DNA from: Rudanella lutea DSM 19387
GTDB taxonomy: Bacteria; Bacteroidota; Bacteroidia; Cytophagales; Spirosomataceae
NCBI RefSeq assembly: GCF_000383955.1
Contig: NZ_KB913013.1
Location: 2,076,277 to 2,140,276 of the forward strand
Length of the DNA stretch: 64,000 bases
Reading direction: 5' to 3'
The notes below the pieces were generated by a model, which searched no databases, was not told the origin of the DNA, and worked only from the letters and a program-made list of their open reading frames with translations. Of the stretch, positions 8,012 through 57,903 are shown piece by piece (the first letter of the stretch is position 1; each line of letters starts with the position of its first letter). The position numbers and the translations under genes are program-made.

Positions 8012-8828
8012 GAGTGTGTGGACAATCAGAGCAACAAAATCATACTTGAAGCCAGATGAACCATCGCCAAGAAGCTGCTGGCTGTTTTTTCGTAGCGAGT
8101 TGCTACCCGGCGATACTGTTTCAAGCGGTTAAAATAGCGTTCAATCTTGTTGCGATCAGCGTACAAATTCTCATCGATTACCCGCTGCTCCACCCGATTC
8201 ACTTTGGAGGGAATGATCGCGTCACAACCGTTGTGGGCCAACCCTTCCAGCAACCAATCGGCATCATAAGCCTTATCGGCAATCACAGCAAAAGCCTCAC
8301 AGTCAGCCAGTAAGGTGGCTGCGCAAGGCGCATCACCCGCATGGCCAGGACTTAACTCAATGCGGATAGGATTGCCTAAGGCATCCACCAGAGCATGAAT
8401 TTTTGTGGTCAAGCCGCCCCGTGAGCGGCCTAATGCTTGTTGCTGGAGACTACTTTTTTTTGCCCAGCAGCCTGTTGATGAGCTCGCACCGTTGTCGAGT
8501 CAATCATTACCCAATCCAGGTCGGGCTCTTGCAGGGCATCAAAGACCTGTTTCCACACCCCAGCCTGAGCCCAGCGCCGAAATCGTCGGTAGTTGCTGTT
8601 CCAATTGCCGAAGCGTTCAGGCAAGTCGCGCCAAGGCGCACCCGAGCGGGCAATCCAGAGCACGGCGTTGATAAACAAGCGGTTATCGAGTGCTTTTCGG
8701 CCTGCTGAGCCTGCCTGTCCTGGTAGAAGAGGGGTGATTTTAGTCCATTCCTGCTCGGTGATCTCATAGCGTCTCATGCCACAAAGATCGTAGGATTGGG
8801 TAAGTTTATCCTAATTGTCCACACACTC
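8012..8828 (-). mobile_element. Complete IS5-family (IS427-type) insertion sequence, 817 bp
   Basis: Perfect 15-bp terminal inverted repeats GAGTGTGTGGACAAT (8012-8026) and its complement (8814-8828) enclose a two-frame transposase. A TA dinucleotide flanks both ends (8010-8011 and 8829-8830), fitting the TA target duplication of the IS427 group. Length, repeats and reading frames are all intact, so the element may be active. It sits between the ArsC-like gene and the Nif3-like gene, 53 bp before the latter's ATG, and may have displaced that gene's promoter. Confidence 0.92.
8026..8777 (-). CDS. IS5-family transposase made by -1 frameshifting
   Basis: The first frame (8430-8777) encodes MRRYEITEQEWTKITPLLPG through VMIDSTTVRAHQQAAGQKK, including the first catalytic Asp. 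It then enters a run of eight A residues on the coding strand (8454-8461). A -1 slip there continues as SSLQQQALGRSRGGLTTKIH into the second frame, which carries the second Asp (VIADKAYDAD) and the Glu (DRNKIERYFNRLKQYRR) of the DDE triad. This is the usual expression mode of such elements. The stop codon overlaps the left terminal repeat. All three catalytic residues are present. Confidence 0.9.
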
Positions 8829-28562: not shown

Positions 28563-29672
28563 TTAGTGGCCGCGGGCTGTTACGGGCCATTCATCAACCA
28601 CCTGCCCGTGCTCAACTACCTGCACGGCATCGTACAGATTCACGGTCGGGCAAATATGGATCGGAATCCCGTACCATACGTCGCCGGGTTGGTGCGCGCG
28701 GGCATTGGATACCCGCACCACCAGATGCTCTTCGCTTTGGCCAATCGGCTCGGCATCGGGGTGGTCGGGGAAGAGCACCCTCGGAAACGGGTTTTCGGCC
28801 GCTACCGATTTATGACCGAGGTCGATGCACAGGGTTTGGTCGTCGATAACCGAAATCACACGCGTGAGCAGCACGGCCGCTACCTCGTAGGGCAAATCGG
28901 GCAAAGCCTGTCCGTACCCGGCATCCCAGAATACAAACGTGCCGGGGCTCAGCTGCATGGTGGGGTCGGTGCGCCGGGCGTGGGCCGGAAAACTGGGTGT
29001 ACCGCCCACCACAATGGGTAATTCAACGCCCTGTGCTTCTACAATCTGTTGCTGCACCGCTTTCGCCAGTGCAAACGACGCATCGGCGCGGGTACAGCGT
29101 ACGGCAAAGTCCGTATCGCGGATGTGGCCATCGTACGCGTGCAGACCCGCTACCTGTACGCCCGGCAACTGACCTATGAGGTTGGCCAAAACGGGTGCGA
29201 CCACCGGGTCGATACCGGTACGGCCCATGCCTACGTTCAGATCAATCCAGACATCAACCGGGCGCGGGGCATCGGCAAACACCGCCGAGAGGTGCCGCGC
29301 CCCCGCTTCTGAATCGGTCAGGCAGGCCCACCGAACCGTCGGAAACGCGTCGGCCAGTTGACGGAGTCCTTCGGCTTTGGGCCCAACCACGGGATAGGCC
29401 AGCAAAATATCGAGAGCACCCGCTTCGGCCAGCATCCGGGCTTCTTTGAGCGTCGCACATTTAAACTGCCGGATGCCAGCGGCCAGTAACTGATCGGTTA
29501 CGGCGCGCATTTTGTGCGTTTTCACGTGTGGGCGCAGCCGGGCCGCTCCCCCTTCGGACCCACCCGCAGCGGCTATGTGAATCGTCTTCTGAATATTGTC
29601 GGCCACGGTCCCGGCATGTACGAGCAGGGCAGGCGAATCAATCAGGTCGGGATTAGTGAGGTGATACCACAT
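28563..29672 (-). CDS. D-threonine aldolase-like / alanine racemase-fold PLP enzyme
   Basis: A 369-residue protein with an N-terminal alanine-racemase-type TIM barrel and a C-terminal D-serine-dehydratase-like domain. The PLP lysine is in LRPHVKTHKMRAV. Later blocks are FKCATLKEARMLAEAG, VDVWIDLNVGMGRTGI, VAGLHAYDGHIRD and LCIDLGHKSVAAENP. The C-terminal His and Asp pattern (SEEHLVVRVSN, GIPIHICPTVN) fits metal-dependent D-threonine aldolase or D-serine dehydratase. Start 29672 (MWYHLTNPDLIDSPALLVH) matches the family start; an ORF extension to 29762 is rejected. The next gene on the same strand is the M19 dipeptidase. Confidence 0.87.
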   Translation of the reverse strand: MWYHLTNPDLIDSPALLVHAGTVADNIQKTIHIAAAGGSEGGAARLRPHVKTHKMRAVTDQLLAAGIRQFKCATLKEARMLAEAGALDILLAYPVVGPKAEGLRQLADAFPTVRWACLTDSEAGARHLSAVFADAPRPVDVWIDLNVGMGRTGIDPVVAPVLANLIGQLPGVQVAGLHAYDGHIRDTDFAVRCTRADASFALAKAVQQQIVEAQGVELPIVVGGTPSFPAHARRTDPTMQLSPGTFVFWDAGYGQALPDLPYEVAAVLLTRVISVIDDQTLCIDLGHKSVAAENPFPRVLFPDHPDAEPIGQSEEHLVVRVSNARAHQPGDVWYGIPIHICPTVNLYDAVQVVEHGQVVDEWPVTARGH

Positions 29673-29792
29673 ATAGGGTGTATAGATTCGGGGTTCGGTT
29701 CTGTGCGCGACGGTCAACAGTATGTCCACAAAACCAAAAACCGGATGCAATTTACGTATCACGCAGCCCTGAGTGGTGTATTAATTAAAACA

Positions 29793-29862: not shown

Positions 29863-30267
29863 TCAAACAATACCCCATTTGATTTTGAGACTACCTGTCA
29901 TGGGTATAGTGGGCCTAATTTCCATGATGACATTTTTATTGTTGTAATAATCCGACCGATAGTCGGTATTACCATCATAGCTCCCTTTTGGAAACACTCT
30001 GGTAAAGATCAGTACGTTTGAACCTGATGGGGCCTTTTCGTAAAACTTAAACGTTACTTCCTGCGTAATATTCCCTGTTATTTTCAAGAGTACAGCCGTT
30101 GAAGGGCCTTCCTTCTTTGGTGCAGTAAGTTCGTACGTTTCAACTTTAGAGAAATCGGAGAGTATAACTTCTGCATAAGAAACCTGAGTGGCCACACCTG
30201 GGTTCTTACATCCTGCACAGGCAATAATTATTGCCCAATACAAAGCGAGTGCGAGAAATTTCTTCAT
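29863..30267 (-). CDS. Hypothetical small lipoprotein
   Basis: A 134-residue protein with a lipoprotein signal (MKKFLALALYWAIIIACAGC), cleaved before Cys20. The mature part is beta-rich (YAEVILSDFSKVETYELTAP, QEVTFKFYEKAPSGSNVLIF) and ends in KIKWGIV. I do not recognise the family. Its ATG lies 9 bp downstream of the stop of the DUF6973 lipoprotein, so both form one transcription unit. The gene is clearly AT-richer than the rest of the window, suggesting acquired DNA. A partner or immunity-like role for the upstream protein is possible but not shown. Confidence 0.65.
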   Translation of the reverse strand: MKKFLALALYWAIIIACAGCKNPGVATQVSYAEVILSDFSKVETYELTAPKKEGPSTAVLLKITGNITQEVTFKFYEKAPSGSNVLIFTRVFPKGSYDGNTDYRSDYYNNKNVIMEIRPTIPMTGSLKIKWGIV

Positions 30268-30276
30268 GCGCTATAC

Positions 30277-31548
30277 CTAATTACAGTTGATTGAAACATC
30301 AGCCGTTCGACCTATATAAGCACTCCCATCAGGATTGGAAGTTGGTAATGCGATTAAAAAGCTACTTGTGTCATTGTGGTAGTTCATCCCTCCAAGACTG
30401 CCCAAATTACCATTGTAATAACTTAAAGTACCACTTGCGTACTGTTGGCGCAGATGAAAACAAACGTAGGATTTAAAATAGTCACGAATAGCGTCATCGC
30501 TGGGGTTATACGTAACTATTCCGAACAAACCTGTTCGTACCATCTGATACATATAAGTTCGTCCAACTAAATTATTATGCAAATCCATAGCAGCATCGTC
30601 TCCCTCTGATCCTGATGTTGGCAAACTGCCACTAACAAACCAACTATCAAAATTCCATGCAAAGTAGGTACCTAAATCATTGAAGAAACTGCCGTTAAAA
30701 GTTTGCGTTGGACAACTTTGGCAGTTGATGTTTTTCAGTTCGTGAGCAGTAGCAAACTGCCGCATTTTATCCAAAGCTACCCATTTATTTCCTCGCCGGG
30801 TAATGATCTCCTGCACCCCCATAGCATTCCAGACTGCATGTTTAAAGGCATTTGCATTATGCCTATCTCCGTTACCATTAGGCCCAAAAAGAGCATCGAC
30901 CATATTAGTTGCATCGGTCCGAGCCACTGATACGCTCCAGCCTGATGTTGGGTTCCAGGCCGTTAAAGCGTTTTCAAAGTCATTAGGTTCTCCAAATTCC
31001 AGTGCCATTCGTGCCCCCTTTCTCGCCTTCATCTTTTTGGCCAGTTCAGGAGCAATTTCGATCTTAATTAGGTCTGAATAGTAATCGTAAACGACTTGAC
31101 CATACTTATCTATATCTTCTTCGTTCTTTAAATCCGGAAAATCCTTACGGATACGGGCAAGGTCGCTCGATTTCAGGGGCCGTTGGCGCAAATCGGGGTA
31201 CTTTGCAGCTATTCTTCGAATTTCCTGAAGGATTTCATCTAAGGTAAGTAGACCCCAGTCGGCTTTATCCTGAGCAGCTACCCGCCCTCCCGGATCCGTT
31301 TTGCTCAAAACGTGTTGGTCAAAATAAGCCATGTATTTATCAAACTTTTGACCAAAAATATCCTGTGAAACATTGGCTGGAATTCTAACGCGGAGGCCGC
31401 TCATCGTAACATAACGGTCTTCGGGGTTGATATTTCCCCTACTATCGACCGTTTCGAGATGCAGTTCGCAAGAGAGGATAGTGATCCCAATAAGGGTCAG
31501 CATCAGTAAGTTCCCCATCAAATGGGTAAATGAACGCTTGGCAAACAT
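30277..31548 (-). CDS. DUF6973-like lipoprotein of unknown function
   Basis: A 423-residue protein with signal and lipobox (LTLIGITILSCELH, Cys27). Residues about 35-215 are mostly helical and charged. From about 225 there is a conserved domain with DRHNANAFKHAVWNAMG, a following FATAHELKN motif and AMDLHNNLVGRTYMY, a His/Asn/Glu pattern I associate with DUF6973. The clustered His, Glu and Asn residues could bind metal, but no catalytic activity is known to me. Four cysteines (NCQSC, YVC, NCN) lie in the C-terminal half. The region is AT-richer than the surrounding DNA. A candidate promoter and a duplicated 15-mer lie directly upstream. Confidence 0.7.
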   Translation of the reverse strand: MFAKRSFTHLMGNLLMLTLIGITILSCELHLETVDSRGNINPEDRYVTMSGLRVRIPANVSQDIFGQKFDKYMAYFDQHVLSKTDPGGRVAAQDKADWGLLTLDEILQEIRRIAAKYPDLRQRPLKSSDLARIRKDFPDLKNEEDIDKYGQVVYDYYSDLIKIEIAPELAKKMKARKGARMALEFGEPNDFENALTAWNPTSGWSVSVARTDATNMVDALFGPNGNGDRHNANAFKHAVWNAMGVQEIITRRGNKWVALDKMRQFATAHELKNINCQSCPTQTFNGSFFNDLGTYFAWNFDSWFVSGSLPTSGSEGDDAAMDLHNNLVGRTYMYQMVRTGLFGIVTYNPSDDAIRDYFKSYVCFHLRQQYASGTLSYYNGNLGSLGGMNYHNDTSSFLIALPTSNPDGSAYIGRTADVSINCN

Positions 31549-37291: not shown

Positions 37292-38341
37292 TCACAAAGA
37301 ATTTAATTCGACCACGGTGACGCCGGGGGTGGCCCGGAACCCATCGACCATGATTTTGCGGTGATTGGCCCCGACGAAAACAACTACGCGTTTGGCACCC
37401 CTCTGCCGGGCCCGTTCTACGGTATTGCGCACCATATCGTCGTTTCGATTTTGCCACTGGGCCAGCATGGCCTCGACCTCTTTTTGCGGAAAGCCCGTAG
37501 CGCCAAACAGGCGGTGTGCCCCGTAGAAATTCACGATATTGAGCATTTCATCGCCCGCAGGTGAGTTGAAAAACCAGGTTGACTGACCCGCCTTTTCGGC
37601 CTGGCTCTCAGCCTGCAATAAGGTACGAACGCGATTCATCAGCGCGGTAAACCGGCGGGCCTCCGTCGAGGTACTGTCGGTCAGGTGGTCGGTCCAGGCC
37701 CGGTAAAGCGTGTCGACGCGGTCCCAGGCGGCCTGCCAGGCAAGGTCGTGTCGTTGGCTGTCCATCGCCCCCAGTTCATCAATACCAAGTGCATCCATCA
37801 GCGGAAACACCACATTATGGTATTCGCTGGAGCGATTAGTGTATAGCGAATCGGGCTCGCCCAAAATAGCGCGGTAGGCGGCTACCTCGTCGGGCCCGAA
37901 CTGTGGGCGGGCCTTATCGAGCCGGTACAGGTGGTAGCGGGCGTTGGCCATATCCCGATTGAGGTACAGCACCCGCGCCAGTTTCATACGCTCCTGATGA
38001 AGTTGGGGTTGCTTACGCAGTAACCGGCGGGTTTCGCGGATAAACTGGTCCGGGTTTTTAGGCGCCGGGTAAGCCGTCTGCCGGACGTAGGCCAACCGTC
38101 GTTCTACATTGGCTTTGTTCCAGTAATTCGTCAGGGCGTCGTAGTCGGCGGCCGACAAAAACTCGCCGTACAGGGCGTCAGGCTTGAACGTGGCAATCTG
38201 CCGAATCAGACTATCGAATTTCTCAACTTGCTTTTTGCCGTAATTGTGCGACGTACCCACCATGAGTACGTCGAGGGGCTGGCCAACGGTGGTTGGTAAT
38301 CTTGTAAACAGGAGAACGAGCAGGGCGAATAGCGGTTTCAT
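37292..38341 (-). CDS. DUF5694 family protein, exported
   Basis: A 349-residue protein. ATG 38341 gives a signal peptide (MKPLFALLVLLFTRLPTTVG), so an ORF extension to 38554 is rejected. The domain opens with LDVLMVGTSHNYGKK and includes FKPDALYGEFLSAADYDALT and MDALGIDELGAMDSQRHDLA, and it closes with KRVVVFVGANHRKIMVDGFR. The N-terminal GTxH, internal Glu residues and C-terminal NHR recall TraB/EreA-like folds, but no activity is established. It is divergent from the histidine-kinase gene at 38569. The function is unknown. Confidence 0.75.
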   Translation of the reverse strand: MKPLFALLVLLFTRLPTTVGQPLDVLMVGTSHNYGKKQVEKFDSLIRQIATFKPDALYGEFLSAADYDALTNYWNKANVERRLAYVRQTAYPAPKNPDQFIRETRRLLRKQPQLHQERMKLARVLYLNRDMANARYHLYRLDKARPQFGPDEVAAYRAILGEPDSLYTNRSSEYHNVVFPLMDALGIDELGAMDSQRHDLAWQAAWDRVDTLYRAWTDHLTDSTSTEARRFTALMNRVRTLLQAESQAEKAGQSTWFFNSPAGDEMLNIVNFYGAHRLFGATGFPQKEVEAMLAQWQNRNDDMVRNTVERARQRGAKRVVVFVGANHRKIMVDGFRATPGVTVVELNSL

Positions 38342-38499
38342 ACGGTTGTGTTGTGTTCGGTTGATTGATGGGACAAAGGTGCGGGAGCCCATTTCGCAGC
38401 GCTTCATCAACTCGACCAACCGGGCCGTTTTGTCGGCAAACGCCCGTTGCAGAGCCCAAGCCTGTTGGTCGGCAAAAAAAGGGCGTTGGTCGAACCGGT

Positions 38500-38530
38500 T
38501 TGGGCGTATGCACCCTACCGAGCACTTTTG
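38500..38530 (+). promoter_or_regulatory. Candidate promoter of the LytS/LytTR operon
   Basis: TTG at 38500-38502, 20 bp, then CACTTTTG at 38523-38530 matches TTG-N20-TAnnTTTG with one mismatch. The ATG is 39 bp downstream. The spacing is the same as in the TetR promoter candidate at 918. Confidence 0.4.
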
Positions 38531-38568
38531 CAGCGTAACCAAAACCGCGTACACGCTCCGCCCATGCC

Positions 38569-39621
38569 ATGACGTTCAATCGCCAACTTAGCCGCCCCCT
38601 TCTCCGTAACCTGCTGTACCTGGGTCTATTTTTGCTACCCCTCTCGCTCGACCTCATCAACCCCAACCGCGACCGAATCGAGTTCAGCCTGTTTGGATCC
38701 ACCTTTGTGCTTGTTTTTCTGCTCACGGCCTGGTTTGAGCACGTCGTAGTGCTGAACCGGTTTCTCGACAGGCAGCAGTATGTACAAACCGGGCTGGGGT
38801 CGATTTTGGCCTTGTTCTTTTTTGTTGGCGTGCGCTATCTGGTTGAGCAGCAGTTAACCCGGCTCTTGTTCGGGTCAGTCAATTACGACCCTACCGACCT
38901 GACAGCCAGTTATTATTTGAGCGATAACCGATACTACGCTTTGGCAAGCGTGGGGCTGGGTGTTCTGTTTAAGCTAATCGAAGACTGGATTGTGCTGCAA
39001 CAGGAGCGCCGGGCGTTGGTAAGCGAGAAAACAACCGCCGAGCTGGCTTTCCTTAAATCGCAGATCAACCCGCACTTTCTGTTCAACACGCTCAACAATA
39101 TTTACGCCCTGGCCTACACCAAGTCAGATGCCGCACCGGGGGCCATTCTGAAACTGTCGGAGCTGATGCGCTACATGCTTTACGAAAGCACGGGCGGACC
39201 GGGCGGAGATGCCTCTCCACCCCAGAAAGTAATCCTCAGCCGGGAGATTGAGTACCTACGCAACCTGGTCGATCTGGAAACTCTGCGGGTTCCCAACGCA
39301 CAGGTCCAGTTTGTGGTCGATGGGAACACCGATTTATACCGCATTGAGCCAATGCTGCTTATTTCACTCGTGGAAAATGCCTTTAAACACGGCAACCTCA
39401 CCGACCCCAACCACCCCCTCGTTATTCGGTTGAGTGTGCGGCAGGGGCAGTTACAGGCCGAGGTTACCAACAAAAAAGGCCATCATCAGAAAGACGCGAC
39501 CGGCGGCATAGGCTTGCCCAACGTGCGCCGTCGGTTAGCTTTGTTGTACCCCAACCGGCACCAACTCCACATCCACGAAGACGCGCAGACGTTTGTCTGT
39601 CGGCTCGAAATAAGCCTGTAA
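38569..39621 (+). CDS. LytS-like sensor histidine kinase
   Basis: A 350-residue membrane sensor kinase. About four transmembrane helices occupy residues 12-150 (LLRNLLYLGLFLLPLSLDLI, LGSILALFFFVGVRYLV). The His_kinase (PF06580) motif LKSQINPHFLFNTLNNIYAL at about 165 carries the phosphorylated His. A HATPase domain follows with LLISLVENAFKHGNL (N box) and GGIGLPNVRRRLALLYP (G box). The response-regulator gene starts 14 bp after its stop, so the two are one operon. The signal sensed is unknown. Confidence 0.93.
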   Translation: MTFNRQLSRPLLRNLLYLGLFLLPLSLDLINPNRDRIEFSLFGSTFVLVFLLTAWFEHVVVLNRFLDRQQYVQTGLGSILALFFFVGVRYLVEQQLTRLLFGSVNYDPTDLTASYYLSDNRYYALASVGLGVLFKLIEDWIVLQQERRALVSEKTTAELAFLKSQINPHFLFNTLNNIYALAYTKSDAAPGAILKLSELMRYMLYESTGGPGGDASPPQKVILSREIEYLRNLVDLETLRVPNAQVQFVVDGNTDLYRIEPMLLISLVENAFKHGNLTDPNHPLVIRLSVRQGQLQAEVTNKKGHHQKDATGGIGLPNVRRRLALLYPNRHQLHIHEDAQTFVCRLEISL

Positions 39622-39634
39622 GCCCCTTTTCCCT

Positions 39635-40411
39635 ATGTTCCGTACCCTCATTGTCGACGACGAACCGCTGGCCCTCACGATCCTGAGCGATTATGTCGGC
39701 AAAGTCCCTTTTCTGACCCTTACCGGCACCACAACCAGCCCCATTGCGGCCCTGCAACGTGTACAGGCGGGCGAGGTCGATCTTATTTTGCTGGATATTC
39801 AGATGCCCGAACTCACGGGGATTCAGTTTCTGAACATCATCCGGGGCAGCCGTTGCCGGGTTATTCTGACCACGGCCTATGCCGAGTATGCCCTCGATGG
39901 GTACGAACACGATGTAGTCGATTATCTGCTCAAGCCCATTTCATTCGATCGGTTTTACCGGGCGGTGCAAAAACTGATTGCCCAGCCAAACCCCACCACA
40001 CCCACCGGAGGAGGACTACCTACCGGGGCAGGGGCTGCCGTGTCGCACGCCCATGAATGGGCCGAACGCGTCTCGCCGGACCCCGACTTTATTTTTGTTA
40101 AAACCGAATACCGGCTCCAGCGCGTCGACCTGACCGACATTTTGTATGCCGAGGGGCTGAAAGATTACGTGTCGCTCTTTCTGCCACCCCCACCCGGCAA
40201 GCCCGATCCGACCCGCCTGCTGACGTTACAGACCCTCAAGCATCTGGAAGAGAAACTGCCGGTGAGCCGGTTTGTACGGGTGCACAAATCATACATTGTT
40301 GCCCTCAACCGGATCGAATCCATCGAACGCAACCGGATATACATTGGTAAGGCCGTTATTCCGGTGGGCGATACCTACCGCGATGAATTTTTCCGGCGCA
40401 TCGACGGGTGA
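39635..40411 (+). CDS. LytTR family response regulator
   Basis: A 258-residue regulator, partner of the upstream kinase. The receiver domain (about 1-120) has the acidic pair in TLIVDDEPLAL, the phospho-acceptor Asp in VDLILLDIQMPELTGIQFL, and the conserved Thr and Lys in ILTTAYAEYALDGYEHDVVD/YLLKPISF. A Gly/Pro-rich linker precedes a LytTR DNA-binding domain at about 150-258 (FIFVKTEYRLQRVDLTDILY, SRFVRVHKSYIVALNRIESI). Such pairs often regulate nearby or cell-envelope genes, but the target is not evident here. Confidence 0.94.
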   Translation: MFRTLIVDDEPLALTILSDYVGKVPFLTLTGTTTSPIAALQRVQAGEVDLILLDIQMPELTGIQFLNIIRGSRCRVILTTAYAEYALDGYEHDVVDYLLKPISFDRFYRAVQKLIAQPNPTTPTGGGLPTGAGAAVSHAHEWAERVSPDPDFIFVKTEYRLQRVDLTDILYAEGLKDYVSLFLPPPPGKPDPTRLLTLQTLKHLEEKLPVSRFVRVHKSYIVALNRIESIERNRIYIGKAVIPVGDTYRDEFFRRIDG

Positions 40412-47602: not shown

Positions 47603-48014
47603 GACGTCTTTCGATTTACGTAAGGTGAAAAAGTAAGTGCATCGAACGGTTGTAAAGCTGACTCCGAAGCCCGCCCGTTCATAGCAAACAACCGCCCACC
47701 GACGTCCAATCACACACAACCCCAATGCCCGAATGAGGCAACGGTCCGGCCTCTGCGCCGTTTTAGCAGCCGACCAACAATCGACTCCGAATGTCCAGTA
47801 CGGAGCATTCCAAATACTCTATCTTGACAACTAGCTGGCTAACAAATGGTTAAACATTGTTCTGTATTTTCCTATCCCGTGGGACCGTTGGCTCAGCTAA
47901 TGTCTTTTTTAGTACCGATTCACTCTATAGATCAGTTAAACAAATAGCCACCGGTTGCCACCCGGCCCCGGCGGCCTCTCTTTCCAAAAACGACGCTCAG
48001 TTTCCATACAGCCC
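47603..48014. other. Gene-free intergenic region
   Basis: This 412-bp region separates the divergent DUF892 and P450 genes. No frame looks coding. The stretch from about 47820 to 47960 is AT-richer and probably holds the P450 promoter, but no box matches the TTG/TAnnTTTG pattern well. No repeat is seen. Confidence 0.5.
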
Positions 48015-49157
48015 ATGGCAACGATTCCCCGTGAAAAGAGCATTGATAGTTCAATAGCTCTGATCCGCGACGGCTTTCGGTTTATCCAAAAGCGCTGCCA
48101 ACACCATCATTCCGATGTGTTCAGCATCCGTTTCCTGTTCCAACCCGCCATCTACCCGACGGGCGAAGAGGGTACGCGCCTGTGTTACGACACCTCCCGG
48201 TTCGTCCGGAAAGGTGCCATCCAGCATCCCCTGCTGGGCGAACAAAGTGCCCCGACGCTCGACGATGAGCAGCACCGGCAGCGCAAACAGTTGTTCATGG
48301 CGATTCTGGCCCCTGACAGTATCCGGGTGCTCCTGAAACACATGGCCGACGGTTGGCAAACGGCTACCAAACGCTGGGCTCGTACCCACGAACCTGTGGT
48401 TCTGATGCAAGAAACCCAGCAGTTACTTTGTCGGGCAGCCTGCGATTGGGTCGGGATTCCGCTGCCCAACCGCGAGGTGGCTCGCCGAAGCCGCGACATG
48501 GCCCGGATGATTGATGCGTTTGGGGGCGTAGGGCTCCGTCACCTGCGTGGGCGGTGGGCACGCTACCAAACCGAGCGCTGGGCCCGGCATTTTGTTGAGC
48601 AGGTTCGAAAGGGCAATCAGCTGGTAGCTACCGACTCGCCCGCGCACCGGATAGCTACCCACCGCGAACCGAATGAACAGGGTAAGATGCGGCATCTGCC
48701 TGCACAACTCGCCGGGGTTGAGCTGATCAACCTGATGCGGCCCACGGTGGCTATCTCGTGGTATATCACGTTTGCAGCTCTCGCCCTGCACGAACACCCG
48801 ACCTGGCGACAACGCCTACAAACCGCTACTGATACAGAATTGGGTTGGTTTGCCGACGAGGTACGCCGGAATTACCCCGTTGCGCCCATGACCGGGGCGT
48901 GGCAGGAGTTTGCCGAATATGCCCCTACCCCGTTCAATCTGACTCCGCCCGGAGGGGGCGATTATCTGGGCGGGCACCGGTACCCGGGCGAGGCCATTAC
49001 CCTGGAAGCTATCAAGCTCGCGCTCCGTTTTCTGACTCGCCAGATCACCTACGAGGTGCCCCCTCAGAACCTCCACTTCAGCCTTTCGCGTAAGCCGACA
49101 CACCCCCAAAGTGGCTTCGTGATGACCAACATCCGGCTCATGTCGGAAACCCGATAG
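48015..49157 (+). CDS. CYP152-like P450 with Tyr in place of the heme-ligand Cys
   Basis: A 380-residue protein clearly related to CYP152 fatty-acid peroxygenases (typical length about 415). Matching blocks: IPREKSIDSSIALIRDGFRF at the N-terminus, LDDEQHRQRKQLFMAILAP, the I-helix INLMRPTVAISWYITFAALA with the substrate-carboxylate Arg-Pro pair, and the ExxR motif DEVRRNYPVAPM. The heme-binding loop reads PPGGGDYLGGHRYPGEAITL. Residue 323 is Tyr (codon TAC at 48981) where the family has the thiolate Cys. About 40 residues between the K helix and this loop are missing in-frame. Either it has a changed heme ligand, does not bind heme as a P450, or is in decay. ATG 48015 fits family length. Confidence 0.85.
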   Translation: MATIPREKSIDSSIALIRDGFRFIQKRCQHHHSDVFSIRFLFQPAIYPTGEEGTRLCYDTSRFVRKGAIQHPLLGEQSAPTLDDEQHRQRKQLFMAILAPDSIRVLLKHMADGWQTATKRWARTHEPVVLMQETQQLLCRAACDWVGIPLPNREVARRSRDMARMIDAFGGVGLRHLRGRWARYQTERWARHFVEQVRKGNQLVATDSPAHRIATHREPNEQGKMRHLPAQLAGVELINLMRPTVAISWYITFAALALHEHPTWRQRLQTATDTELGWFADEVRRNYPVAPMTGAWQEFAEYAPTPFNLTPPGGGDYLGGHRYPGEAITLEAIKLALRFLTRQITYEVPPQNLHFSLSRKPTHPQSGFVMTNIRLMSETR

Positions 49158-49175: not shown

Positions 49176-50117
49176 TTATGCGGTAAGCCCCAAACGGCCG
49201 GCCCGGTCGCGGAGCAAGTCCTTATAGGCTGTTTTCATTTGGGCACTAAGAAAACTTTTATCTATCCACTCAAAACTTTCGGGGATGCGTTTTTCGAAGC
49301 GCGCAAAAATGTTACTCTGCTGCCGTTCAGTGAGGCATAGATAATTGGCAAAGGCGTGCCAGTCGCTTAGTTGAAAACGGCTCTTTCGCCCATTCATCGA
49401 CAAAGCAAGTTCTTCGGAGTCAGATGGCAACAGTAACTTTGTAGCCAACAGATCGTAGGCTGGCGTAAGGGCTATAAAACCATTTTTCTGCCAAAGCGAA
49501 AAATTTTTCAAATGCATATCGGCATTGCCCGTTAGAAAGCAAAACACCGTCACCTCAAACAACGTCAGCGCATCTAATCCAGCCTGTGTACTGTGTTTCT
49601 TTACCAATCGTCCAACAAGTTCCATAGAACCCTTATACTTATCAGCGGTAATTTTTTCAGCCAACTGACAGAAATCTTCCATAGCATACTTACGGCCTTT
49701 CCTATCGCGGTCGATACGACGGGTCAGGTAAGCCAGCTCTCCCGTCTGTAGCCGAATTAACGCGTGGGGCACAGTCTCAATACCAAAGTGGGCCGCCAAA
49801 TGCATAGTCAGATCTTCGACTTCGGGCATTTCCGGGTAAGGGATGTAGGGCGGCTTGAGAATAAACTGCCCCCAAAGTCCCACCAACGTCAGGCGATCTA
49901 CCCCTTTCTGTCGTTGCAGATCAAGCGATAATTTTGGCTGTACGCCCGTTACGGTTACACGCTGCCGAACAATCTCTGCCGCTAGTTCATGCATTGTATC
50001 CAGCGAATACGGCAACAGAGGGACCTGTATAGTGCCAAACATTTTCCGACTGCATTTTGCATGAAAATCAGTTTCATCAACAGCCAACGGCTCGTAACAG
50101 GCTAAGCAACGTGTCAT
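49176..50117 (-). CDS. hipT: HipT-like serine/threonine kinase toxin
   Basis: A 313-residue HipA-C-type kinase. It opens with CxxC-x11-HxxC (C4, C7, H19, C22), a possible zinc site. The Gly-rich loop is VTVTGVQPKLSLDLQRQ, the ATP-binding Lys is in GQFILKPPYIPYPEMPE, the catalytic loop is FLTGNADMHLKNFSLWQ and the metal-binding Asp is in LTPAYDLLATKL. The HipA N-terminal subdomain is absent and is encoded separately by the next gene, the HipBST arrangement. Start overlaps the hipS stop by 4 bp. By analogy it would phosphorylate an aminoacyl-tRNA synthetase; the target here is unknown. Confidence 0.88.
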   Translation of the reverse strand: MTRCLACYEPLAVDETDFHAKCSRKMFGTIQVPLLPYSLDTMHELAAEIVRQRVTVTGVQPKLSLDLQRQKGVDRLTLVGLWGQFILKPPYIPYPEMPEVEDLTMHLAAHFGIETVPHALIRLQTGELAYLTRRIDRDRKGRKYAMEDFCQLAEKITADKYKGSMELVGRLVKKHSTQAGLDALTLFEVTVFCFLTGNADMHLKNFSLWQKNGFIALTPAYDLLATKLLLPSDSEELALSMNGRKSRFQLSDWHAFANYLCLTERQQSNIFARFEKRIPESFEWIDKSFLSAQMKTAYKDLLRDRAGRLGLTA

Positions 50118-50446
50118 GGCTCACTGGTAACAGAAACAATACTTACAGCTCCAACACAATCGCGACAGCAGGCCAACAGCAGACCGAAACGGTCATTAGG
50201 CCGTAACTTCCAGTTCTGTTCAGCAATATCAAGTAACCACCCTTCCGGAATCAAACCATCGAAAAATGGAAACAATATCGTGCTACGATAAGGCGTACCG
50301 GCAAGTGGTAAAGTCAAACTTACAGGCATGGCACCATCACTTACCAGATAGTCGGCATCGTATGTAAACACGTATCCTTCATCGGCTTCTTTCAGTTGGC
50401 CCGCCAATATAGGCGGATTGAATACGTACACATTGGCCTGCCTCAT
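50114..50446 (-). CDS. hipS: HipS-like antitoxin (HipA N-terminal subdomain)
   Basis: A 110-residue protein corresponding to the N-terminal subdomain 1 of HipA: VYVFNPPILAGQLKEADEG, a beta-rich centre MPVSLTLPLAGTPYRS and the FFDGLIPEGWLLDIAEQNWK motif. In HipBST systems such a stand-alone subunit neutralises HipT. It overlaps hipB by 4 bp at its start and hipT by 4 bp at its end, so the three genes are translationally coupled. Regulation would come from hipB and the operators upstream. Confidence 0.88.
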   Translation of the reverse strand: MRQANVYVFNPPILAGQLKEADEGYVFTYDADYLVSDGAMPVSLTLPLAGTPYRSTILFPFFDGLIPEGWLLDIAEQNWKLRPNDRFGLLLACCRDCVGAVSIVSVTSEP

Positions 50447-55032: not shown

Positions 55033-55482
55033 ATGAAACCTATGACACTCACCGGCCCCACGGGCTCATTTGAACTGGCTGTATTAGACTACGAATACAG
55101 CGATTCGCCCCGGTTTCTGGAGCGCAACGGCTTGCTGGTACACATCCGAACCCGGCACCAGAACCACGAATGGTCGCAGGCGGTACCTGTGCTCTCGACC
55201 TGGGAGCTCGAACTTCTCCGCGACTGGATGTCGTCGGTAGCGGCCCATCAGCACCAATCCCGCCGGATTACGTTTGTGGAACCCGAAATCAGTTTCAGCG
55301 ATTTTTCGGGCGGTACCGATGGGTACGACTTACGGCTCAAGCTCTCGCACGAGGCTCAGCCCGGCTGGCAACCGACCGATCAGCAAGCGTTTTATCTGAC
55401 TCTTTCGCCCGACTCTACGCAACTTCAGGAAGCCATTGTGACGCTCGATGAACAGTTGCAACAGTTTCCGGTTCGCGATTAA
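55033..55482 (+). CDS. WapI-like immunity-family protein
   Basis: A 149-residue soluble protein. FELAVLDYEYSDSPRFLER, LSTWELELLRDWMSSVA and RRITFVEPEISFSDFSGG resemble the WapI family (immunity-like proteins), in which a beta-sheet is flanked by an EL-rich helix. No toxin gene is adjacent, so an immunity role is not supported by context. It has no signal peptide. ATG 55033 gives MKPMTLTGPTG; a second ATG follows three codons later and would also be acceptable. It is flanked by a strong terminator. Confidence 0.55.
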   Translation: MKPMTLTGPTGSFELAVLDYEYSDSPRFLERNGLLVHIRTRHQNHEWSQAVPVLSTWELELLRDWMSSVAAHQHQSRRITFVEPEISFSDFSGGTDGYDLRLKLSHEAQPGWQPTDQQAFYLTLSPDSTQLQEAIVTLDEQLQQFPVRD

Positions 55483-55499
55483 TCACTGACGAGTTTTTG

Positions 55500-55546
55500 G
55501 CCGGTTGCCGCACGGATAAGAACCCGTGCGGCAACCGGCTATTTTT
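55500..55546 (+). terminator. Strong bidirectional-capable terminator
   Basis: GCCGGTTGCCGCACGG pairs perfectly with CCGTGCGGCAACCGGC around an 8-nt loop, followed by TATTTTTG. It lies 17 bp after one stop codon and its 3' arm touches the convergent DinB stop. Confidence 0.9.
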
Positions 55547-56063
55547 GTACACCCGGCACATACCGCTCCTGAATCACCCGGGCGTGGTGTATTGGGTGGC
55601 CAACCAGCACAAACCCTAACGCCAGAACCGAGATAGTCTGGTTGAAACAGATGCCCGTACGCTGTAGCATCCCGGCATCGAAACTCCGAAATAACGCCCG
55701 TGTCGACTGCCGTTGCAGCGCGTATTCGTCGTACAGATCGGTCAGCGACCGGCGCGACGCCTGGGCGTACTGCGCAAAATCGTCTTCTTCAAAGCCTGGC
55801 AACCGGGTTTGATCGTTGCGAGCAAACCGTAAGGCTCGGTACGCCATAATCCGCTCGGTATCAATCAGGTGCTGAACAATATCTTTGACCGTCCATTTAC
55901 CGGGTGCGTACCGGTAATCGCCCAGGTTTTCGAGCGTTTGGGCAGGCAATAGCGTTTCGAGCCGGGCACCGGCCGCCAACGCATCGTTCAGTTCCCCATC
56001 AGGTGCCAGCTTAATGTACCGATCGAAGAACCCCGGCATCGGGTTAATGTGGGCTTTGGTCAT
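55539..56063 (-). CDS. DinB family protein
   Basis: A 174-residue four-helix DinB/YfiT-type protein. The metal-binding His triad is read from VKDIVQHLIDTERIMAYRAL and the pair in LVGHPIHHARVIQERYVPG; other typical residues are RYAPGKWTVKDI. Such proteins bind Zn or Ni and some act as thiol-dependent S-transferases (bacillithiol or mycothiol type), but substrate is unknown. The N-terminus has no signal peptide. It lies 40 bp upstream of a free Hpt ORF in the reverse direction of reading. Confidence 0.88.
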   Translation of the reverse strand: MTKAHINPMPGFFDRYIKLAPDGELNDALAAGARLETLLPAQTLENLGDYRYAPGKWTVKDIVQHLIDTERIMAYRALRFARNDQTRLPGFEEDDFAQYAQASRRSLTDLYDEYALQRQSTRALFRSFDAGMLQRTGICFNQTISVLALGFVLVGHPIHHARVIQERYVPGVQK

Positions 56064-56065
56064 AA

Positions 56066-56103
56066 TCTTTACGCATCATACATTACACACTGTGCATTCC
56101 TCA
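56066..56103. repeat. Heptamer stretch after the Hpt copy
   Basis: Units CATCATA, CATTACA, CACTGTG, CATTCCT and CATTACC follow the stop codon of the Hpt copy (minus strand). It is a diverged version of the stretch at 58340-58375. Confidence 0.6.
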
Positions 56104-56472
56104 TTACCCCTTACGCGTCAGCAAAAACTCCTCAAAGGCTCTGGTCAGCGCCTGAAGCTCTTCGGCCAGGTGGCTGGTATCGCTTAATTTGAGCTTACCC
56201 TCGGCCTCGCGGGCAATGTGAGCCACCCGCGACACGCCAATAGTGCCCGCACTGCCTTTGAGCGTGTGCAGGTGACTCTTCACCGTCGGAATGTCGCCGA
56301 GCGCAAAGGCATCGTTGGCCCCGTTGACCAACTCGGTAGCCTCCGTCACAAACTCACCCATAATCTCATCCACCAGTTCCTGACCACCCAGATCGCGCAA
56401 CTGCGACACAATCTCCTCATCAATCACGGGCGGCAGCGGGGCCTGTATCTGGGCAGACGATCCATATGACAA
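56104..56472 (-). CDS. Free Hpt domain, duplicate of the hybrid kinase C-terminus
   Basis: A 122-residue ORF whose last about 115 residues are the Hpt domain of the hybrid kinase at 58382-62131. The phospho-acceptor His is in VKSHLHTLKGSAGTIGVS. 56106-56454 is identical to 58384-58732 except for one base. The first seven residues (MSYGSSA) come from the complement of an IS3 relic, and the frame happens to start with ATG at 56472. It may be an expressed stand-alone phosphotransfer protein or an inert fragment; no promoter is obvious. The original reading frame is kept. Confidence 0.65.
   Translation of the reverse strand: MSYGSSAQIQAPLPPVIDEEIVSQLRDLGGQELVDEIMGEFVTEATELVNGANDAFALGDIPTVKSHLHTLKGSAGTIGVSRVAHIAREAEGKLKLSDTSHLAEELQALTRAFEEFLLTRKG
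56106..56454. repeat. 349-bp direct repeat, copy A
   Basis: This repeat matches 58384-58732 with one mismatch (C versus G within the CTC/CTCGG stretch near 56341). Offset is 2278 bp and both copies have the same orientation. The preceding 40 bp are also similar (CATTACACACTGTGCATT versus CATTACACATTGTGCATT). Confidence 0.92.
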
Positions 56473-56700
56473 TGCTTACGCTGAGTCACTATGGGGCCGT
56501 CTAAAAGCTGAATTGCTCAAAGACGGAGTATTTTTGAGTGCTGAAGATGTCCGAACCGAAGTGTTAGCCTACATTGAAGGTTACTACAATTAGGTACGTA
56601 GGCAGCCCGGTCGTCGCTGGACTACAAAAGCCCTGAACACTATGAGCAACAGTATTATACAAATAAAAAGCAGCCGTTTAATAGATTGACAATCAAAGTA
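56456..56700 (+). pseudogene. IS3-family transposase C-terminal relic
   Basis: The plus strand reads DDPYDNAYAESLWGRLKAEL followed by LKDGVFLSAEDVRTEVLAYI and EGYYN before a TAG at 56591. In another frame SSLDYKSPEHYEQQYYTNKK continues. This is the end of an IS3-type OrfB (rve/DDE) with the last catalytic Glu, broken by a stop and a frameshift. The 5' part is cut off exactly where the duplicated Hpt fragment begins. Confidence 0.8.
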
Positions 56701-56782
56701 TACATATGTTTTAACAAAACTATAAATATGTTTTACATTTGAGAAGATCTAACCTCCTTGAACTCTGGAGAGGGAGCGTTAG

Positions 56783-57130
56783 ATGCCATTCTTCACACAA
56801 ATATTCTATCCACTAATGCAAATCATTTACACAAAAATTGCGAGAGCCTTCTTAGTAGGGCTAGCTTTAGTTATGGGTATAACTACAAGTTTTGGGAAAG
56901 CAAACGAATGTACAGGAACAGGACATTTTGATGATGGTACGCTTGCGGGTGTAGCAATAATCAAGTGGGTCGTCGAAGATACAGACTGCTGCGCACGGAC
57001 ATCAGGATTAGCATTAGTAACCTACGCTTACTATATAAACGGGGTGTATTCATCTACAGTATCGTACTACGTTACTATTGCTGAAGTCCAGTATGCTGCT
57101 GGCTGTAATTCATCCATTAATCCAAGCTAA
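56783..57130 (+). CDS. Small secreted Cys-containing protein, unknown
   Basis: A 115-residue protein with a signal peptide (IARAFLVGLALVMGITTSFG) and a short mature part containing four cysteines (ANECTG, TDCCART, AAGCNSS). No family is recognised. It is strongly AT-rich compared with the window. ATG 56783 follows a purine-rich stretch GGAGAGGGAG; ATG 56816 (MQIIYTKIARAF) is an alternative start with a more normal signal length. The lipoprotein gene starts 12 bp after its stop, so the pair forms one unit. It could be a secreted peptide with a lipoprotein partner, but this is a guess. Confidence 0.55.
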   Translation: MPFFTQIFYPLMQIIYTKIARAFLVGLALVMGITTSFGKANECTGTGHFDDGTLAGVAIIKWVVEDTDCCARTSGLALVTYAYYINGVYSSTVSYYVTIAEVQYAAGCNSSINPS

Positions 57131-57141
57131 ACTGACTTATC

Positions 57142-57903
57142 ATGAAAAAGTACATAATAATTAGCTGTGTTGCCCTCACATTATCAAGCTGTGGGATTAC
57201 TGAGCAAGAAAACGTTTCAAGTGATAGGTTTTCTTCAGGGATAACATCGAACAAACCACTCGTAGCTGATGCGATTCCTTTAAATCTTCCGGGAGTCAAC
57301 CCTTCTAATTCTAAGCTCTCTGCTGCTCAAATGAAGGTTGCTGCTTTGGAGAATGAAGCGTTACAAGAGCACTTGTCAGAAATTGCAACAATACCCATTC
57401 CTCTTGAGAATAGTCAGCCAGCTATATCTGTAGAGGAAGCCCATAAGCGGTACACTGCCTTTTTGGATCAACATAAAGGTGATAAGGTCATTCCTTTGTT
57501 TCAACAGCGCTATGCACGGGTAATGCTAAATCAGTATAACCTGTTAAATCAAACAGATTATGATTTAATCTATTACTATGTTGACCAGCTACGAATGTCT
57601 AAAACATTAGATTTCAGTACCCTTGCTAAAGGGTTATCTAAACTCAATGGTCACATTGACCAGACGCGCCTTGAACAAGAAACGCGCCTTGTACTACATG
57701 ATGCAGAACAACGACTTGTATCAAATCAAAAAGCAATAGCAGCGATTAAAAATAGTCTTCAAAATAGGAAAGAAATACGTGTGAATGGGGACTTTAAAAA
57801 GGACTTTATAGTGGGAATTATGGAGCATGAAATTTCTCGCCTGGAAAATTCAACATTACCGGAGGACATTTCTAAGCTGAAACAGATACTGACTAAGCTG
57901 TAA
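57142..57903 (+). CDS. Hypothetical lipoprotein
   Basis: A 253-residue protein with a lipoprotein signal (MKKYIIISCVALTLSSCGIT, lipobox LSSC). The mature part is mostly helical and polar (RYTAFLDQHKGDKVIPLFQQ, LEQETRLVLHDAEQRLVSNQ) with an acidic C-terminal helix. No recognisable domain. AT-richer than its surroundings, like the gene before it. Likely foreign DNA together with the nearby IS relic. Its start 11 bp after the previous stop suggests co-transcription. A hairpin follows. Confidence 0.6.
   Translation: MKKYIIISCVALTLSSCGITEQENVSSDRFSSGITSNKPLVADAIPLNLPGVNPSNSKLSAAQMKVAALENEALQEHLSEIATIPIPLENSQPAISVEEAHKRYTAFLDQHKGDKVIPLFQQRYARVMLNQYNLLNQTDYDLIYYYVDQLRMSKTLDFSTLAKGLSKLNGHIDQTRLEQETRLVLHDAEQRLVSNQKAIAAIKNSLQNRKEIRVNGDFKKDFIVGIMEHEISRLENSTLPEDISKLKQILTKL

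Follow-up and report, generated by a model that had tools for sequence, protein, structure and literature searches.

A CYP152-type peroxygenase gene of Rudanella lutea with tyrosine in place of the heme-ligand cysteine is probably a young pseudogene

CYP152 fatty-acid peroxygenases carry a cysteine as heme ligand, and in the peroxygenase sequences aligned by a 2018 review this residue is reported to be completely conserved (PMC5818669). A CYP152-type gene of Rudanella lutea DSM 19387 encodes tyrosine at this position within an open reading frame, which raises the question whether it specifies a new kind of enzyme or is a gene in decay. A preliminary description of the locus, made from its sequence, had offered three readings: a heme held by tyrosine, a heme-free relative and an early pseudogene. 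In this work we analysed a window of 64,000 nucleotides that contains the gene (contig NZ_KB913013.1, positions 2,076,277 to 2,140,276) and compared it with related genomes. Of the three readings the early pseudogene fits best, the heme-free relative is possible and the tyrosine-ligated heme is unlikely. With a probability of roughly three in four, in our estimate, the window copy is a CYP152 fatty-acid peroxygenase gene that has recently become a pseudogene, inactivated late on its branch with the frame still open; the tyrosine most likely reflects decay and not a new kind of enzyme.

The gene, a remnant of a CypC-type fatty-acid peroxygenase, occupies positions 48015-49157 on the plus strand, as do all its features given below. 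It has 380 codons with neither stop nor frameshift, each indel being a multiple of three in total, and its ATG coincides with the N-terminus of CYP152A1 and with that of the ortholog in the sister species. A phmmer search against solved structures matched 24 distinct sequences, with CYP152A1 and its variants on top (E 4e-91). In the alignment with CYP152A1 (1izo), window residues 3-296 correspond to chain residues 4-296 and window residues 297-375 to chain residues 337-415; since the chain resumes at 337 opposite window residue 297, 40 chain residues (297-336) are absent. Tyr323, read from the codon TAC at 48981-48983, pairs with chain residue 363, the cysteine of the loop. The I-helix Arg242-Pro243 (48738-48743) and the ExxR motif E282-R285 (48858-48869) are retained, and the GGG..GHR.PGE frame is present in the heme-binding loop GGGDYLGGHRYPGE (48951-48992), whose length equals that of the loop in the sister ortholog. 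An I-helix Arg-Pro replacing the acid-alcohol pair is a peroxygenase feature described in the review (PMC5818669). The open frame, Tyr323, the 40 missing residues and the CYP152 landmarks reported in the preliminary description were all found again in this alignment.

Compared with CYP152A1 (P450BSbeta), SPalpha and OleT, the window protein matches from end to end apart from its losses and shares the I-helix Arg-Pro, the ExxR and the GGG..GHR..GE pattern, whereas it lacks the cysteine, 40 + 4 residues, Phe289, the Gln of the AIQG stretch and the Arg of the PERF motif. The NCBIfam model NF053744 (CypC) matched it with E 3.2e-114 and 381.7 bits, and the sister ortholog with 540.4 bits; the curated cut-off of 600 bits is reached by neither, and this test tells little because the intact ortholog misses it too. 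With the Pfam P450 model no match was obtained for the window protein up to E 0.05, and the sister ortholog scored 66.6 bits. The window genome contains no second CYP152; a 480-aa frame at another place in it matched only weakly. AlphaFold2 models of the window protein and of the intact sister control, both built on a two-sequence alignment, had mean pLDDT values of 33.5 and 32.0 and were uninformative on the fold or on the reach of the tyrosine.

An intact counterpart lies at the same locus in Rudanella paleaurantiibacter HX-22-17 (L007, 4001-5281). This full-length CYP152 has 427 residues from the corresponding ATG and the cysteine, and shows neither the 40-residue nor the 4-residue loss. 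Over the 380 residues that both proteins have, identity is 85%, with 57 or 58 differences depending on the alignment. A GH1-like protein, a DUF892 protein, a HipA-like protein and MnmE are neighbours of the gene in both species. The DUF892 gene (PF05974; 47114-47725, minus strand) is the divergent upstream neighbour and is conserved in the sister species; its presence, reported in the preliminary description, is real, but it provides no functional link. Downstream, the convergent gene for a protein with a HipA-like C-terminal domain (49176-50117, minus strand) is syntenic in the sister species. No CYP152-grade match was found in two further genomes of the genus, one of which is 71% complete; the other has a weak match (E 6e-5) to a different P450-like frame. 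Of the four genomes of the genus, two were found to contain the DNA upstream of the CYP152 gene, namely that of the window and that of the sister species. Between the DUF892 and P450 genes, the non-coding positions 47880-47945 are nearly identical in the sister while the flanking bases have diverged, and this segment is perhaps a promoter region; Rfam gave no match up to E 1 in 501 bases around the CYP152 start.

CYP152-grade matches were obtained in 8 of 222 family genomes and 21 of 390 order genomes, five being common to both searches, which gives 24 loci. The loop is covered in 23 of the family and order CYP152s; in 22 of them the heme-ligand position is occupied by cysteine, and tyrosine occurs in the window copy only. 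The preliminary description had proposed that selection would be likely if several genomes shared the tyrosine and the deletion; no other genome examined has either, and within this set Tyr323, the 40-residue loss and the 4-residue loss are each confined to the window copy. Cysteine was also present in all eight plasmid-borne CYP152s sampled, which were picked by hand among the 40 records listed out of 111 and came from three alphaproteobacteria, a gammaproteobacterium, two bacilli, a cyanobacterium and a planctomycete. A sample of 395 genomes of the phylum yielded nothing beyond the window's own match at E 1e-20, and the 22 stretches matched in a scan of viral contigs with a CYP152 alignment included no relative. 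The weak matches of the family search (E 1e-9 to 1e-3) fall in the C-terminal part of the query, except that in genome G119.

Two further damaged CYP152s were met in the order. In genome G018 the gene (L019) is cut to about the first 106 of 427 residues, a stretch that shares 65% identity with the sister protein, more than was found for any other sequence outside the genus; the genomes near G018 contained no additional CYP152, the four of 29 that matched at E 1e-10 being all already known. In the order genome G463 the gene (L043) has one internal TAG. Both resemble the window copy in being damaged, and differ from it in that the damage is a truncation or an internal stop and not a set of in-frame losses. 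From these two loci, loss of the peroxygenase looks recurrent within the order.

The window copy has suffered more than the preliminary description recorded: the 40-residue loss was noted there, and a second loss of four residues, F289V and the losses of the AIQG Gln and the PERF Arg were missed. The junction of the 120-nt loss lies at 48894-48914, and eight of the 40 residues gone are invariant in 20 relatives. This loss fits best as 6 nt + 114 nt, with GTTTG microhomology flanking the larger piece. Over 150 bases compared, this reading gives 29 mismatches and a single 120-nt deletion 31, so that it is only slightly the better one; it would imply that the WQEF of the window protein derives from an upstream RQAF and not from the downstream PERF. 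The Arg of PERF, which is invariant in the 20 relatives and which we take to form the ERR triad with the ExxR motif, is deleted, and ExxR is kept. A separate 12-nt loss has its junction at 48216-48221, after Ala68, and one of its four residues is a Pro invariant in the 20 relatives. In total the gene differs from that of the sister by two or three separate indels, and a tenth of the protein is gone.

Substitutions add to these losses. The Phe at CYP152A1 position 289 is Val in the window protein, and Thr310 and Pro312 replace a conserved Ile and Gln immediately ahead of the heme loop. At each of the positions changed by F289V, I310T, Q312P and C323Y at least 19 of the 20 relatives agree, and all four positions presumably lie near the heme. 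The Gln of the AIQG stretch, which we take to be Gln85 of CYP152A1, is Pro in the window protein and Met in the sister species. The 20 relatives have 70 invariant columns; the large loss removed eight of these from the window copy, and the small loss a ninth. In the remaining 61, the window protein departs at four (C47Y, F57C, T72P and C323Y) and the sister at one (p=0.375). The window copy departs more often than the sister's at strongly conserved positions, window-only versus sister-only departures numbering 7 versus 1 at positions conserved in at least 19 of 20 relatives (p=0.070), 10 versus 2 for at least 18 (p=0.039) and 14 versus 4 for at least 16 (p=0.031), the four conservation thresholds being non-independent tests. 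The L019 fragment was left out of the tree and the conservation counts, and L043, with its internal stop, out of the counts of polarised changes, conserved departures and invariant columns.

These changes bear directly on the idea of a tyrosine-ligated heme protein, either catalase-like or with an altered peroxygenase chemistry. In favour of this idea, the tyrosine takes the very place of the ligand, the loop around it has kept its length, and the carboxylate-binding Arg has been preserved. However, the side chain of tyrosine exceeds that of cysteine by about 3 to 4 Angstrom, and the loop has been neither shortened nor lengthened to fit it. F289, I310, Q312, the PERF Arg and 40 residues have been lost together; F289V, I310T, Q312P and C323Y in combination point to loss of the heme, since a functional tyrosine-ligated enzyme would be expected to keep its pocket. 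Such a protein is moreover absent from every relative examined, and the complete conservation of the peroxygenase cysteine stated in the review also speaks against it. Among the papers listed in a literature search, none is presented in its title or the opening of its abstract as a report of a natural tyrosine-ligated P450. We regard this explanation as very unlikely.

A sequencing or assembly artefact is very unlikely. The finding rests on one assembly of one strain, and this could favour an error; against it, the genome is 99.83% complete in four contigs, the differences from the sister are spread along the whole gene, the synonymous divergence (dS 0.52) resembles that of most neighbours, and the deletion carries just a 5-base repeat. 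A single-base read error, which the preliminary description had named for position 48982, is ruled out by the 57 or 58 differing residues of 380 and by the two or three separate indels. We likewise rejected horizontal replacement of the CYP152 gene, because its dS is like that of most neighbours.

The HipA-like gene and its adjoining frame (49176-50446) have dS values of 2.5 and 1.1, against 0.3-0.5 in most neighbours, which suggests their replacement by recombination. Five frames at 55033-57903 show low synonymous divergence from the sister (dS 0 to 0.2), perhaps through recent gene flow. Seven frames, at 8026-8777, 29863-31548 and 37292-40411, have no counterpart in the sister's syntenic stretch; positions 38569-40411 encode a histidine kinase and a LytTR response regulator.

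We then considered selection on the gene. Measured from the ATG, the pairwise dN/dS between window and sister is 0.148 (NG86) or 0.155 (ML), and five tested neighbours all lie below the CYP152 gene, at 0.016-0.062 (NG86). For the frame as listed the value is 0.169, the highest of 37 window genes (median 0.054). This comparison kept genes of at least 150 aa with a dS between 0.1 and 1.5; it left out the HipA-like gene (dS 2.5) and a 253-aa gene (omega 0.564 at dS 0.006), and the seven frames without a match in the sister stretch fell outside it. The preliminary description had named as refuting evidence close relatives with the cysteine and a full loop, or a dN/dS near 1: the closest relative does have both cysteine and loop, whereas the dN/dS is about 0.15. 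This pairwise value probably reflects mostly the time before inactivation.

Codon branch models, run on 8 of 23 sequences and 371 columns (alignment A2 held 15 sequences), strongly rejected an omega of 1 on the window branch (2dlnL 68.7). A synonymous clock was not rejected (p=0.35), and under it omega was 0.196 for the window branch and 0.093 for that of the sister (p=0.049); models without a clock gave no difference between them (p=0.82). The polarised changes (32 on the window branch, 20 on the sister branch and 6 undecided) gave no clear excess, and this polarisation is rough because the outgroups are about 50% identical. The mean BLOSUM62 score of the changes was -0.22 for the window versus +0.55 for the sister, which is only suggestive (p=0.084). 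The placement of changes relative to conservation was random-like on both branches (0.215 for the window; 0.139 for the sister, in the opposite direction), and this test does not separate them since neither differs from random.

If the sister omega is taken as the functional rate, an estimated 11% or so of the window branch would have been neutral, corresponding to some 30 neutral substitutions. In simulations the frame was still without a stop after 30 such substitutions in 35% of runs. The open frame, which the preliminary description had held against simple decay together with the I-helix Arg, is thus weak evidence for function, a young pseudogene often staying open. The in-frame indels speak modestly against decay, with an estimated chance of 1/9 to 1/27 if their lengths were random; the point loses some of its force because it was the open frame that led to the choice of this gene.

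In the same window, an Alanine-racemase-like / D-serine dehydratase domain gene (28563-29762, minus strand) encodes 399 aa, where the sister species has 511; internal stretches of 37, 6 and 4 residues are missing, and omega is 0.154. It is possibly another case of decay, or a difference in frame calling.

The open frame, the in-frame indels, the omega well below 1 and the retained I-helix Arg-Pro and ExxR could also be explained by a heme-free protein of P450 fold kept under selection, as a scaffold, as a fatty-acid-binding protein or as an activator of a partner, in the manner of EryCII for its glycosyltransferase. However, much of the low omega can date from before the loss, the protein is found in a single species, and no partner gene is evident beside it, the DUF892, GH1-like and HipA-like genes flanking the intact copy too. 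The deletion presumably took the segment that should hold the K' helix and the C-terminal sheets. EryCII, in contrast, retains both (PMC3391682). EryCII is a functional P450 homologue without cysteine and heme, and it and DesVIII resemble the window protein in being P450-like and lacking the Cys ligand (PMC3391682). It differs from it in having one more helix at the N-terminus and in being partnered by a glycosyltransferase; its nearest structural homologues, according to its authors, are CYP125 and CypX and not CYP152, and at least 12 further glycosyltransferases have EryCII-like helpers (PMC3391682). A cysteine-free P450 of this kind would be expected in several genomes beside its partner, and the window protein occurs in one genome with no candidate partner. 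We therefore hold a selected heme-free scaffold to be possible though unlikely. It is quite unlikely that selection maintains a CYP152 without heme, or with one held by tyrosine, to bind fatty acids or to activate a partner, and that the 40-residue loss is an adaptation to this role. We know of no other maintained heme-free or tyrosine-ligated CYP152, and none appeared among the papers listed in the literature search.

The young pseudogene agrees with the intact syntenic ortholog of a close relative and with the loss of catalytic residues and core segments; the frame itself is undisrupted, without a stop and with its indels in frame. Of the features of an active CYP152, the I-helix Arg-Pro is present, and the Cys ligand and the combination of ExxR with the PERF Arg are not. 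The course of events may have been as follows. The ancestor would have been an ordinary CYP152 peroxygenase needing its cysteine and H2O2 and functional until late on the branch. An in-frame deletion at the GTTTG microhomology would then have taken out the segment that, by our assignment of secondary structure, we take to lie between the ExxR helix and the heme loop, after which the P450 core should no longer hold heme. The cysteine and conserved residues around the heme may have drifted subsequently, or the cysteine may have been lost first. The frame would still be open because inactivation spans only the late part of the branch, about a tenth by the clock estimate. The protein, if made, would be heme-free and inactive as a peroxygenase.

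The gene thus probably represents the early decay of a dispensable and patchily distributed peroxygenase. Were it instead a maintained heme-free or tyrosine-ligated CYP152, it would provide a natural test of the P450 fold without the thiolate. As a young pseudogene, it would neatly show the loss of a peroxygenase at an early stage, and would warn against inferring a new enzyme whenever the heme ligand is replaced in an open frame.
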